Shown here: piece after piece, positions 450-5,430 of the stretch
Layout of the letters: each line of letters opens with the position of its first letter
Position numbering within the stretch: the first letter of the stretch is position 1
Notes under the pieces: generated by a model
Told to the model about the DNA's origin: nothing
The model's database searches: none
The model's input: only the letters and a program-made list of their open reading frames with translations
Source of the DNA: Halarchaeum grantii
Lineage (GTDB): Archaea; Halobacteriota; Halobacteria; Halobacteriales; Halobacteriaceae
Length of the DNA stretch: 64,000 nt
Assembly (NCBI RefSeq): GCF_014647455.2
Contig: NZ_BMPF01000002.1
Coordinates: 248,001-312,000, forward strand
Reading direction: 5' to 3'
Translations under genes and position numbers: made by a program

Positions 450-512
450 GTCCTACTCCTCGGACACGTCGGACTTGAAAGTTCGTGGTCGACGCGGCGT
501 GGGGAAACATTC

Positions 513-540
513 TTGTACAGATGAGTCCATTATTGTACAA
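513..540 (+). promoter_or_regulatory. Paired TGTACA boxes, probable trp operator
   Basis: TTGTACA (513-519) and TTGTACAA (533-540) lie 20 bp apart, and the second ends 2 nt before the trpC ATG. Each contains the palindrome TGTACA and together they form a 7+7 bp inverted repeat. TGTACA is the published TRP-box sequence of TrpY in Methanothermobacter. Two boxes two helical turns apart would cover the core promoter and start site of a leaderless trpC mRNA, which fits a repressor. The regulator itself is not in this window. Confidence 0.6.
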
Positions 541-542
541 CG

Positions 543-1313
543 ATGAACGATACACTCGCACCGCAGGTGCGCTCCATCCTGCGGGCGGCGCGCGAGCGCG
601 ACGTCGCGGCCGACGACCGCGTGTCGGTCTCGCCCCGGTCGCTCTCGGCGGCGTTCGCGGACGCCGAATCCGACGGACGCGTCCCGGTTATCGCCGAAGT
701 GAAGCCGACGAGCCCGACCACGGAGGGCGAGCGCCGCGACGACCCCGTCGAACTCGCCGAAGGGATGGTCGCCGGCGGCGCCGCCGCTCTCTCCGTGCTC
801 ACCGAACCCGAGCACTTCGGCGGCTCCACGGAGAACCTCGAACGCATCCGCGATGCCGTGGACGTCCCCGTCCTCCGCAAGGACTTCGTCGTGCGCGAGG
901 CGCAACTCGACGCCGTCGCGGCCGACGTCGTCCTCCTCATCGCGCGCTTCGTCGGCGACGACCTCGCCGACCTCAAGCGGGCCGCCGAGGAGCGCGGCTT
1001 CCAGGTGCTCGTCGAGGTCCACGACCGCGACGAACTCGAGCGCGCGCTCGACGTCGGCGCGGAGTACGTCGGCGTGAACAACCGCGACCTCGCGAAACTG
1101 GAGGTCGACCTCGAAACGTTCGAGAGGGTGGCGCCCCACACATCAGGGGACGTGACACTCATCGCGGAGAGCGGCGTCTCCACGCCAGCGGACGTCCGAC
1201 GGATGCGCGAGGCCGGCGCGGACGGCCTCCTCGTCGGCTCGGCCATCATGGACGGGGACGTCACCGAGAACACCGAGGCACTGACGCGCGCCGAATCGGA
1301 GGGGTCGGCGTGA
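543..1313 (+). CDS. trpC: Indole-3-glycerol-phosphate synthase
   Basis: This 256-residue cytoplasmic TIM-barrel enzyme closes the ring of CdRP to give indole-3-glycerol phosphate in tryptophan synthesis. The sequence shows the AEVKPTSPT strand with the catalytic lysine at about residue 54, the LRKDFVV motif, and the AESGV and GLLVGSAIM phosphate-binding strands near the C-terminus. Length is normal for the family. ATG 543 directly follows the paired TGTACA boxes and no ribosome-binding site is visible, so the mRNA is probably leaderless. It is the first gene of trpCBA; its TGA overlaps the GTG of trpB by 4 nt, which implies translational coupling. Confidence 0.97.
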
Positions 1314-2545
1314 GCTCCACGGACGACGCCGGCAAGTTCGGCGACTACGGCGGCCAGTACGTCCCCGAAGTCCTCATGCCCGCCGTCGAGGAGCTCGAGG
1401 ACGCCTACGAGCGCTACGTCCTCGACAACGAGGACGGCTTCATGGACGACTTCCGCGCGCGCCTCCGGGACTTCGGCGGGCGCCCGACGCCGCTCGGGCG
1501 GGCGGACAACCTCTCTGCCAGGTATGGCGTCGACGTCTACCTCAAACGCGAGGACCTCCTCCACGGCGGCGCGCACAAGCTGAACAACGCGCTCGGGCAG
1601 GTCCTCCTCGCGAAGTACATGGGTAAGGAGCGCATCATCGCGGAGACCGGCGCCGGCCAGCACGGCACCGCGACGGCGATGGCCGCGGCCTACCTCGACA
1701 TGCCCTGCGAGATCTACATGGGCCGCACCGACATCAACCGCCAGCGCCCGAACGTCTTCCGCATGCGCACGCACGGCGCCGAAGTCAACCCCGTCGACGT
1801 CGGTTCTGGTACCTTGAAGGAGGCGACGAACGAGGCCATGCGCGACTGGGCGACCACCGTCGAGGACACCCATTACGTCATCGGCTCCGTCGTCGGCCCG
1901 CATCCGTTCCCGACGATGGTGCGCGACTTCCAGTCCGTCATCAGCGAGGAAGCGCGCCGGCAGTCCGAAGAGCAACTCGGTCGCCTCCCCGAGGCCGTCA
2001 TCGCCTGCGCGGGCGGCGGGTCGAACACGATGGGGGCGTTCCACGAGTTCATCGGCGACGACGACGTCGCCCTCTACGCCGTCGAAGCCGGCGGCTCCGG
2101 CCTCGGCGTCGAGGAGGGCGAGGAGTACGCGCCGAACTCCGCGAGCCTCGGCACCGGGTCCGTGGGTGTGCTCCACGGCGCGAAGACGAAGCTCCTCCAG
2201 ACGGGCGAGGGCCAGATCGTCGAATCCCACTCCGTCTCCGCCGGCCTCGACTACGCCGGCGTGGGCCCCGAGCTCGCCAACCTCGTCGACGAGGGCAGGG
2301 TGACGCCCGTGAACGTCGACGACGACGCGGCGCTCGCCGCGTTCCACCGCCTCTCACGCGAGGAAGGCATCATCCCCGCGCTCGAGTCGAGTCACGCCGT
2401 CGCCTATCTGGAGGAGTACGACGGTGACGGCCCCGTCATCGTGAACGTCTCCGGGCGCGGCGACAAGGACCTCGACACCGTCATCGAGGAGTCCACCGAG
2501 CGCGACCTGCCCGAGGCCCCCGACATGGAGGTGTTCCGCTCGTGA
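1310..2545 (+). CDS. trpB: Tryptophan synthase beta subunit
   Basis: This 411-residue PLP enzyme condenses indole with serine to make tryptophan, working with TrpA. The PLP lysine lies in [12 protein letters not shown] (about K90), the glycine-rich phosphate-binding loop is AGGGSNTMG, and the sequence is of the TrpB1 type. The open frame extends far upstream through trpC, but the N-terminus typical of the family ([19 protein letters not shown]) begins at GTG 1310, which gives a 4-nt GTGA overlap with the trpC stop. Its own stop overlaps the trpA GTG in the same way. Confidence 0.97.
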
Positions 2546-3375
2546 GCGCGGACGACGTCACCGCCGCGTTCGACGCCGAACCCGCGCTCGTCCCCTACGT
2601 CGTCGCGGGCGACCCGAGCCCCGAGGCCACCGAGGCGTACGTCGAGGCGCTCGTCGAGGGCGGCGCGGACGTCATCGAACTCGGCCTCCCCTTCTCGGAG
2701 CCCATCGCGGACGGCCCGACCATCCAGGAGGCCATCCGGCGCGCGCTCGACGCGGGGATGACGCCCGCGAAATACCTCGACCTCGTGCGCGACCTCGACG
2801 TGGACGTCCCCATCGTCTGCATGACTTACTACAATCTCCTCCTCCAGTACGGCGACGGGAACGAGGTGGAGTCGTTCGTCCGCGACGCCGCCGAGGCGGG
2901 CGTCTCGGGGCTCATCATCCCCGACCTGCCCGTCGAGGAGTCGGGCGAACTCGAGGCGGCCTGCGAGAAACACGACGTCGCGCTCGTCTTCATCGTCGCG
3001 CCGACCACGACCGCCGAGCGCGTCGAGCGTATCCTCGAGCGCGCGTCCGGCTTCGTCTACGTGCAGGCGCGCATGGGGACGACGGGCGCGCGCACCGACG
3101 TCTCCGAGGACACCTACGCGAGCCTCGAACGCCTCCCGGCGAGCGAGTTGCCCTACGCGGTCGGCTTCGGCGTGAGCGAGCGCGAGCACGCGAGAGCCAT
3201 CGTCGAGGGCGGCGCGGACGGCGTCGTCGCCGGGAGCGTCTTCGTCGACCGCATCGCCGAGGCCGAGCGCGTCGCCGACGCCGCGGACGCGCTCCGCGAG
3301 AAGGCCGCCGAGCTGAAGGCGGGCATCCGCGACGCCGACCGCAACGGAACGGCCAAACCGGAAACCACAAAGTAA
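2542..3375 (+). CDS. trpA: Tryptophan synthase alpha subunit
   Basis: This 277-residue TIM barrel cleaves indole-3-glycerol phosphate to indole and glyceraldehyde-3-phosphate and channels indole to TrpB. The motif [17 protein letters not shown] carries the two catalytic acids (about E46 and D57, matching E. coli E49 and D60). [11 protein letters not shown] and [10 protein letters not shown] are the loop and phosphate-binding segments. It starts at GTG 2542 inside the trpB stop. A 27-nt gap follows before the aromatic-pathway gene at 3403, which could share the transcript. Confidence 0.96.
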
Positions 3376-3402: not shown

Positions 3403-4191
3403 ATGAATGCGGGCACACGGGCGCGACTCGAACGCATCGGCACCGACGGCAACTACCTCACGGTCCCCATGGACCACGGGGTCACGCTCGGCCCCGTGAA
3501 GGGGCTGAAGGACATCGAATCCACCATCGACGCGGTGACTCGCGGCGGCGCGGACGCCGTCCTCACCCAGAAGGGCATCGCGGGACGCGTCCACCCGAAC
3601 AAGAACGACGCCGGCTACATCGTCCACCTGAACGGCTCCACCGTCATCGGCCCCGACGAGAACGACAAGCGCATGACCGGGAGCGTCGAGGAGGCCGTCC
3701 GCGTCGGCGCGGACGCAGTCAGCTTCCACATCAACGTCGGGAGCGACCACGAACCCGACCAGCTCACGATGCTCTCGGAGGTCACGAAGGAGGCCGAGCG
3801 CTACGGGATGCCGGTGCTGGCGATGGCGTACGCGCGCGGCCCCGGCGTCGACGAGCAGGACGCCGAGTCGCTCGGCCACGCCGTCCGCCTCGCCGAAGAG
3901 CTCGGCGCCGACGTCGTGAAGACCGCCTATTCGGGCGACGCCGAGAGCTTCGCGCACGTCACCGAATCCACCGCGAAACCCGTCATCATCGCCGGCGGCA
4001 GCCCCGAGGGCGACCGGACGACGCTCGCGAACGTCCGCGGGGCGATGGACGCGGGCGGCGCCGGCGTCTCGATGGGGCGCTCCATCTTCCAGCACGACGA
4101 CCCCGAGGCCATCGCGACGGCCGTCTCCGCCGTCGTCCACGACGACGCGAGCGTCGACGACGCCCTCGAACGGGCCGGACTCGACGCCTGA
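3403..4191 (+). CDS. 2-amino-3,7-dideoxy-D-threo-hept-6-ulosonate synthase (ADH synthase)
   Basis: This 262-residue protein belongs to the class I aldolase (DhnA/FbaB) family and is closest to the MJ0400 type. In archaea that lack DAHP synthase, the enzyme condenses a 6-deoxy-5-ketofructose phosphate with aspartate semialdehyde as the first step to dehydroquinate. Seen in the sequence are VPMDHGVTLGP near the N-terminus, the Schiff-base lysine region GADVVKTAYSGD and the phosphate-binding GGSPEG and GVSMGRSIFQ segments. Dehydroquinate synthase II follows directly, which separates this gene from glycolytic aldolases. It sits immediately after trpCBA, making an aromatic amino acid cluster. Confidence 0.9.
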   Translation: MNAGTRARLERIGTDGNYLTVPMDHGVTLGPVKGLKDIESTIDAVTRGGADAVLTQKGIAGRVHPNKNDAGYIVHLNGSTVIGPDENDKRMTGSVEEAVRVGADAVSFHINVGSDHEPDQLTMLSEVTKEAERYGMPVLAMAYARGPGVDEQDAESLGHAVRLAEELGADVVKTAYSGDAESFAHVTESTAKPVIIAGGSPEGDRTTLANVRGAMDAGGAGVSMGRSIFQHDDPEAIATAVSAVVHDDASVDDALERAGLDA

Positions 4192-4263
4192 AGACACCGC
4201 CGCCCTTCTCCCTCGACTGCGGTATTCGCCACGTTCAAGCCGTCGCGTACTGAGGTGCAACCA

Positions 4264-5430
4264 ATGACACGCGAAGTCTGGCTGAAGGCCGACGACTCCG
4301 TCGGCGACTGGGAGACGCGCAAGCGACGCATCACCGCCGGCCTCGAAGCCGGCGTCGACTGGGTGCTCGTCGACGAAGCGGACGTCGCGCGCGTCCGCGA
4401 GCTCGGGCAGGTGAACGTCGCCGCGTTCACCAGTGACGACGTCGACGTCATCGGCGAGGCCGAGGAGGAGACCGCCGAACCGGACGCGTACGTCGTCGGG
4501 AAGGGCGGCGAGGGCGACGGCACCGTCGACCTCCCCGCCGACTTCTCCGGGAGCGCGGACCTCACGACGCTCCGACGAACCGACGACGTGCGCGGCGCCT
4601 ACGTCCGCATCCTCGGCAAGGAGTACGAGTCGTTCGCGGAGACCGCCGCGAGCGACGCCGACTACACGTTCATCGTCGGCGAGGACTGGACGATCATTCC
4701 CCTCGAGAACCTCATCGCGCGCATCGGCGACGAGACCACCATCGTCGCCGGCGTCACCACCGCCGAAGAGGCCGACACCGCCTTCGAGACGCTCGACATC
4801 GGCGCGGACGCCGTCCTCCTCGACACCGACGACACCGACGAGATCCGCCACACCGTCCGCGTGCGCGACCGCGCGGAGCGCGAGACGCTCGACCTCGAGT
4901 GGGCGGAGGTCGTCGAGATCGAGGAGGCGGGCGCCGCCGACCGCGTCTGCGTCGACACGGGCTCGCTCATGGACGACGACGAGGGAATGCTCGTCGGGTC
5001 GATGTCCCGGGGGCTCTTCTTCGTCTACGCGGAGACCGCCGAGTCGCCGTACGTCGCCTCCCGGCCGTTCCGCGTGAACGCCGGCGCCGTCCACGCCTAC
5101 GTCCGCACGCCCGGTGGCGGCACGAAATACCTCGCGGAGGTCGAGAGCGGCGACGAAGTGCAGATCGTCGACACCGAGGGCCACACCCGGGAGGCCGTCG
5201 TCGGGCGCGCGAAGATCGAGCGCCGCCCGATGTTCCGCGTCACCGTCGAGACCGATACGGGCGACCGCTTCGACACCCTCATCCAGAACGCCGAGACCAT
5301 CAAGGTCGAGACCGCCGACGGACGCACCCCCATCACCGAGGTCGAGCCCGGCGACGAGCTGAAGGTGTTCACGCAGGAGGGCGGCCGGCACTTCGGCGAG
5401 AAGGTCGAAGAGCGCATCATCGAGAAGTAG
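4264..5430 (+). CDS. 3-dehydroquinate synthase II
   Basis: This 388-residue protein is the archaeal NAD-dependent dehydroquinate synthase (MJ1249 type), unrelated to bacterial AroB. It deaminates and cyclises the ADH synthase product to 3-dehydroquinate. It shows the family N-terminus (TREVWLKADDSVGDWETRK), the central GSMSRGLFFVYAET segment and FRVNAGAVHAYV. An in-frame GTG lies 9 nt upstream at 4255, but ATG 4264 has GAGGTG (4253-4258) at good spacing and starts like its homologues. It forms a two-step pathway unit with the preceding gene. Its 3' end overlaps the convergent gene at 5417 by 14 nt. Confidence 0.93.
   Translation: MTREVWLKADDSVGDWETRKRRITAGLEAGVDWVLVDEADVARVRELGQVNVAAFTSDDVDVIGEAEEETAEPDAYVVGKGGEGDGTVDLPADFSGSADLTTLRRTDDVRGAYVRILGKEYESFAETAASDADYTFIVGEDWTIIPLENLIARIGDETTIVAGVTTAEEADTAFETLDIGADAVLLDTDDTDEIRHTVRVRDRAERETLDLEWAEVVEIEEAGAADRVCVDTGSLMDDDEGMLVGSMSRGLFFVYAETAESPYVASRPFRVNAGAVHAYVRTPGGGTKYLAEVESGDEVQIVDTEGHTREAVVGRAKIERRPMFRVTVETDTGDRFDTLIQNAETIKVETADGRTPITEVEPGDELKVFTQEGGRHFGEKVEERIIEK

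Follow-up and report, generated by a model that had tools for sequence, protein, structure and literature searches.

Three phased TGTACA-type boxes before trpCBA in haloarchaea: a probable tryptophan operator and its candidate TrpY regulator

The trpCBA operon and its upstream element

The window, here meaning the whole 64-kb stretch of DNA that was analysed, carries the genes trpC, trpB and trpA near its start, followed by genes assigned to the first two steps of the archaeal aromatic pathway. The features of the locus, all on the + strand, are as follows.

500..513, +: trpC basal promoter region, placed by alignment with 80 trpC upstream regions; putative BRE/TATA
514..519, +: box 1, TGTACA; in most relatives it shares bases with the TATA-like end CTTATGTA
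524..529, +: box 2, AGTCCA (consensus NGTNCA), 10 bp past box 1
534..539, +: box 3, TGTACA, 10 bp past box 2 and 3 nt before the trpC ATG
544..549, +: possible box 4, TGAACG, in 10-bp register with boxes 1 to 3 and overlapping the trpC start codon
543..1313, +: trpC, indole-3-glycerol phosphate synthase (NF041303)
1310..2545, +: trpB, tryptophan synthase beta
2542..3375, +: trpA, tryptophan synthase alpha
3403..4191, +: aldolase-family gene (PF01791), 27 nt past trpA, in the position of H. salinarum OE1472F
4255..5430, +: 3-dehydroquinate synthase II, second step of the archaeal aromatic pathway

The aldolase gene in the OE1472F position corresponds to the first step of this pathway, and in H. 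salinarum its homologue (OE1472F) is a member of the first trp operon (PMC4162585).

The sequence immediately 5' of trpC, TCTTGTACAGATGAGTCCATTATTGTACAACGATGAAC, contains two copies of TGTACA, at 514-519 and 534-539 (TTGTACA from 513 and 533), which lie 20 bp apart. The earlier note had described two TTGTACA copies at this spacing that end 2 nt before the trpC ATG, and its coordinates agree with the sequence: the ATG is at 543, and box 3 with its trailing A ends at 540. The account understated the element, having overlooked the degenerate box AGTCCA at 524-529, which stands midway between the two TGTACA copies and gives the whole array a 10-bp pitch. A TGNAC sequence also covers the trpC start codon in 54 of 80 haloarchaeal relatives; this may be a real fourth box, or it may reflect mere second-codon coding for MN or MD.

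Within the window TGTACA occurs four times, against 1.14 expected from shuffles, and 2 of 100 shuffles reach four; the other two copies (12070 and 14771) fall within genes. Such a count is only mildly unusual, as it would be if the pair were a palindrome repeated by chance. Genome-wide statistics were obtained by pattern searches with reversed-pattern controls. The pattern TGTACA-N5-34-TGTACA has a single occurrence in the 3.02-Mb genome, at trpC. When up to 3 mismatches are allowed, the three-box pattern is found at four places, namely trpC (0 mismatches), trpD (3) and two weak sites, and the two-box pattern with up to 2 mismatches is found exactly at trpD, at trpC in three overlapping registers, and elsewhere at control level; the other near matches in the genome are as frequent as those of the reversed pattern (12 vs 13). 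Only trpC and trpD thus stand out from the genome background.

Conservation before trpC and trpD

Eighty haloarchaeal trpC loci were fetched via the TrpC protein, independently of the motif, and scored for their match to TGTACA/NGTNCA/TGTACA (three-box score, maximum 16). The upstream element was present in 80/80 loci with scores of 12-16, a count that overstates the number of independent events because haloarchaeal genomes share kinship, although 31 genus-level representatives nonetheless agree. The 639 control intervals from the same loci scored at most 10, and conservation against this background puts the element beyond chance. The consensus of the 31 representatives reads GACGCAAGCCTTA-TGTACA-GATG-AGTACA-TTAG-TGTACA-ATA-ATG, in which the BRE/TATA-like CGCAAGYCTTA continues into box 1; most haloarchaea have this basal stretch, and its counterpart at 500..513 is the weaker TGGGGAAACATTCT. 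Position and phasing are equally constant. The codon 3 nt past box 3 is ATG in 78 of the 80 loci, and among 57 close pairs of TGNACA copies at trpC the spacing is 20 bp in 51, 10 bp in three, 30 bp in two and 13 bp in one. With fixed spacing and place in every locus, a chance repeat has next to no probability left, and the fixed pair that the earlier note predicted before trpC in related genomes is borne out. Its constant place in every relative checked makes the element almost certainly a switch that turns tryptophan synthesis on and off.

The second strong site of the genome lies before the trpDFEG operon, where CTTATAGTGG-TGTACA-GACT-TGTACA is followed 20 bp further by CGTACA, all upstream of the trpD ATG. 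The same arrangement was found at fixed places in 30 of 30 haloarchaeal trpD promoters fetched by protein (scores of 14-16 out of 16; 210 controls at most 11), so that the boxes anticipated at a trpE/G operon occur, in related form, before the first gene of trpDFEG. Of 391 haloarchaeal genomes, 111 contain the strict three-box pattern and 2 its reversed control, with 29 of 30 fetched loci at trpC; the adjacent TGTACA pair is present in 88, with 24 of 30 fetched loci at trpD. Enrichment at trp genes is therefore seen across the haloarchaea as well as in the single genome, and the sites are restricted to trp and aromatic genes.

A reading of the boxes as the core promoter (TATA and initiator) of strong leaderless promoters, with no specific regulator, draws on the overlap of box 1 with the TATA-like CTTATGTA in most relatives and on the closeness of box 3 to the presumed start site. 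It is very unlikely, as the pair is unique to the trpC promoter in the genome, the trpD site has a separate TATA of its own (CTTATA/CTTAAG) upstream of the boxes, and the 10-bp register recurs at unrelated promoters of the tryptophan pathway. Both this reading and that of chance were rejected on conservation and uniqueness.

Boxes at tnaA, which the earlier note had listed beside the trp genes, held up in part. No tnaA match was found in the genome under study. Among 70 haloarchaeal tnaA promoters the three-box score was at least 11 in 24 (63 of 3500 shuffles) and at least 12 in 11 (4 of 3500 shuffles); the boxes read TGTACA/CGTACA/CGTCCA and follow one another every 10 bp, and their position upstream of the start varies. 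Loci carrying them are L318 and L338 (genus g3), L272, L273, L275 and L277 (g23), L271 (g41), L336 (g11) and L344 (g5). A universal tnaA site was rejected, the signal being limited to some genera and variable in place, though enriched over shuffles. The signal is thus no more than suggestive, and the regulator of the boxes may also act on tryptophan breakdown via tnaA.

Two further sites were observed in haloarchaea. The sequence TGTACAGACGTGTACA lies 18 nt before a gene for an SNF-family sodium-dependent transporter in two genomes of one genus (L158 and L159, 1501-1516), and the gene with this upstream pair is a candidate tryptophan transporter. In several genomes of genus g9 (L219 at 2281, L220 at 2195, L221 at 2065), TGTACAACCCTGTACA is found in the interval separating a TFB gene from a gene for a membrane protein.

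A TrpY-family protein and related sites in other archaea

A search of the genome for ACT domains led to a 167-aa protein encoded near 585.2 kb of contig C2. It matches NCBIfam NF053754, "TrpY family transcription regulator", over its full length (E=7.7e-67, 224 bits; cut-off 180), and the TrpY-like regulator proposed in the earlier note is thus present in the same genome. It is taken to consist of an N-terminal DNA-binding part and an ACT ligand domain. Its match to the Pfam ACT domain (21.6 bits) is under the cut-off of 27; no Pfam HTH match was obtained and the HTH was assigned by alignment, and a comparison with PDB chains gave no meaningful match. Of 391 haloarchaeal genomes, 390 encode a member of the family, all but one of them with a single match. 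It was also detected in 105 of 110 genomes sampled from the phylum and, of 14 named control genomes, only in Haloferax volcanii and Methanosarcina acetivorans. Because TrpY is near-universal, its co-occurrence with the boxes is by itself weak evidence. The haloarchaeal branch of TrpY was called unexamined in 2019 (PMC6737238).

The trpY gene (C2, 585 kb) is unlinked to the trp genes, with trpC on C2 at 248 kb and trpD on C1. Autoregulation was sought in 31 haloarchaea, and no TGTACA was found upstream of trpY; single boxes precede trpY in a few non-haloarchaeal relatives. The lack of linkage and of boxes at its own promoter counts against TrpY as the regulator. In four genomes of one family (f18), and there only, trpY is divergent from and adjacent to trpCDFE, which counts in favour of TrpY; that no TGTACA was found in the intergenic stretch inspected in this family counts against it. 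The DNA-binding part of the protein encoded here shows 64-76% identity to homologues from families that have trp-linked sites, with only 32-39% identity in the ACT part, and only 36% identity to the family that has trpY beside trp without TGTACA. The better preservation of the DNA-binding part argues for TrpY as the reader of the boxes.

Outside the haloarchaea, 67 genomes of the same phylum contain 11 occurrences of the pair TGTACANNNNTGTACA, in 9 genomes. Four precede trpC, trpD, trpEG and a trpB2-like gene, and one precedes the gene for 2-amino-3,7-dideoxy-D-threo-hept-6-ulosonate (ADH) synthase, the first archaeal aromatic-pathway step. One pair stands before a gene for an ECF transporter ATPase and another before that of a small membrane protein that matches no family; the remainder lie in coding DNA or a repeat array or are without assignment. 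The small membrane protein and ECF ATPase sites (L197 and L189, ~1501) come from one genome, and the two genes perhaps encode parts of a tryptophan uptake system. The pair in an apparent CRISPR array of a methanogen relative (repeat TTTCAATCCCACAATGGTCTGATTTTAAC; L192, ~1501) is a chance match.

The hexamer of these sites is that of a known system: in 2005 Xie and Reeve reportedly gave TGTACA as the TRP box of Methanothermobacter thermautotrophicus TrpY. They are also said to regard a tryptophan at residue 2 as characteristic of TrpY and as a possible further layer of control, through charged tRNA. All 24 non-haloarchaeal TrpY homologues examined start with Met-Trp, and all 31 haloarchaeal proteins start with Met-Phe and contain no tryptophan at all. 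If Trp-2 has that role, haloarchaea would be without the charged-tRNA layer. M. thermautotrophicus (trpY-trpEGCFBAD, trpB2) and the haloarchaea have in common, besides the hexamer, several boxes over a trp promoter and a TrpY-family protein in the genome, the two proteins being compared through the NCBIfam family only; some non-haloarchaeal relatives resemble M. thermautotrophicus further in having boxes at trpB2-like genes or, in one family, trpY divergent from trp. In contrast, haloarchaeal trp genes are split into two operons, trpY lies apart from them and has no boxes at its own promoter, residue 2 is Phe in a protein without Trp, and the boxes are three in number, in strict 10-bp register immediately ahead of the start codon. 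The suggestion of the earlier note that tryptophan control by this box extends beyond the methanogen case gains support from comparative genomics, through trpC, trpD, TrpY and the non-haloarchaeal sites. Those sites and the known Methanothermobacter case together support a TrpY-TRP box pairing that extends beyond a single methanogen lineage and probably predates it.

A model for control of tryptophan synthesis

The element at 514-539 is very probably the operator of trpCBA(-aroA'), at which, as before trpDFEG, a single regulator, TrpY, would bind in the presence of tryptophan and block transcription. TrpY as the binder, tryptophan as the corepressor and a steric block are each the most likely choice, and all three we infer from the comparisons above. 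The place of the TATA-like sequence suggests that the trpC transcript probably starts at or next to the ATG and, if so, the boxes cover the region from TATA to start. Three TRP boxes spaced one helical turn apart would then lie on one face of the DNA across this region. Tryptophan-loaded TrpY dimers would bind the trpC and trpD boxes cooperatively and exclude TBP/TFB and polymerase, so that initiation fails; when tryptophan is scarce, TrpY would be released and both trp operons transcribed. At trpE of M. thermautotrophicus, TrpY reportedly blocks TBP/TFB and polymerase in this manner. TrpY of that organism is a repressor that acts with Trp at TRP boxes (PMC6737238). In H. salinarum all seven trp genes, arranged in two operons, show strong induction when aromatic amino acids are lacking, in agreement with the repression model (PMC4162585). 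Pointing the other way, a passage of a 2026 paper that cites Large et al. 2007 calls the H. volcanii trpCBA promoter not tightly regulated (PMC13147458). The TrpY homologue of Thermococcus kodakarensis, which takes no part in trp control, likewise counts against TrpY; there trp and other aromatic operons are regulated by Tar (TK0271), also an archaeal regulator but, unlike the proposed TrpY, an activator, encoded in the aro operon (PMC6737238).

The boxes might instead form a tryptophan or aromatic operator read by another regulator, such as the Lrp-type LrpA2. The haloarchaeal Lrp/AsnC proteins (LrpA1, LrpA2) combine a DNA-binding domain with an ACT-like ligand domain, the make-up also proposed for TrpY, and act in amino-acid metabolism, and Lrp proteins, too, bind phased sites. 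In H. salinarum lrpA2 (trh1) shows a 14.9-fold induction when aromatic amino acids are lacking, and its product has been put forward as a regulator of their synthesis. This proposal counts against TrpY; the one link from LrpA2 to trp is the induction of lrpA2 itself (PMC4162585). We consider this reading unlikely. The Lrp/AsnC proteins belong to a different family for which no TGTACA boxes are described, and the study of LrpA1/Lrp does not mention trp genes (PMC2894021). TGTACA is the TrpY box in Methanothermobacter, and methanogen relatives with a TrpY of their own have the same sites at trp, trpB2 and ADH synthase genes.

Taking TrpY as the regulator, a broader scheme can be drawn, speculative and on present evidence rather doubtful, in which a TrpY-type protein would govern an ancient phylum-wide regulon of trp, trpB2, aromatic-entry and transporter genes. 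In some haloarchaea this regulon would include tnaA with opposite sign, boxes at the start site repressing synthesis and boxes upstream of the promoter activating breakdown, and the haloarchaea would have kept the switch while dropping the tryptophan codon and autoregulation.

The literature searched holds no description of TRP boxes or of a TrpY regulon in haloarchaea; an earlier one in a subscription paper is possible. Control of haloarchaeal tryptophan synthesis appears unsettled, in that aromatic amino acids affect both trp operons and the regulator (LrpA2) has only been guessed. The present analysis provides a precise predicted operator and a candidate regulator, encoded once in almost every haloarchaeon, and both can be tested directly in Haloferax and Halobacterium, which are amenable to genetics. 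The analysis is also relevant to the tryptophan-inducible tnaA promoter, a tool of haloarchaeal laboratories, and suggests that the pairing of TrpY with the TRP box is older than the single methanogen in which it was worked out.
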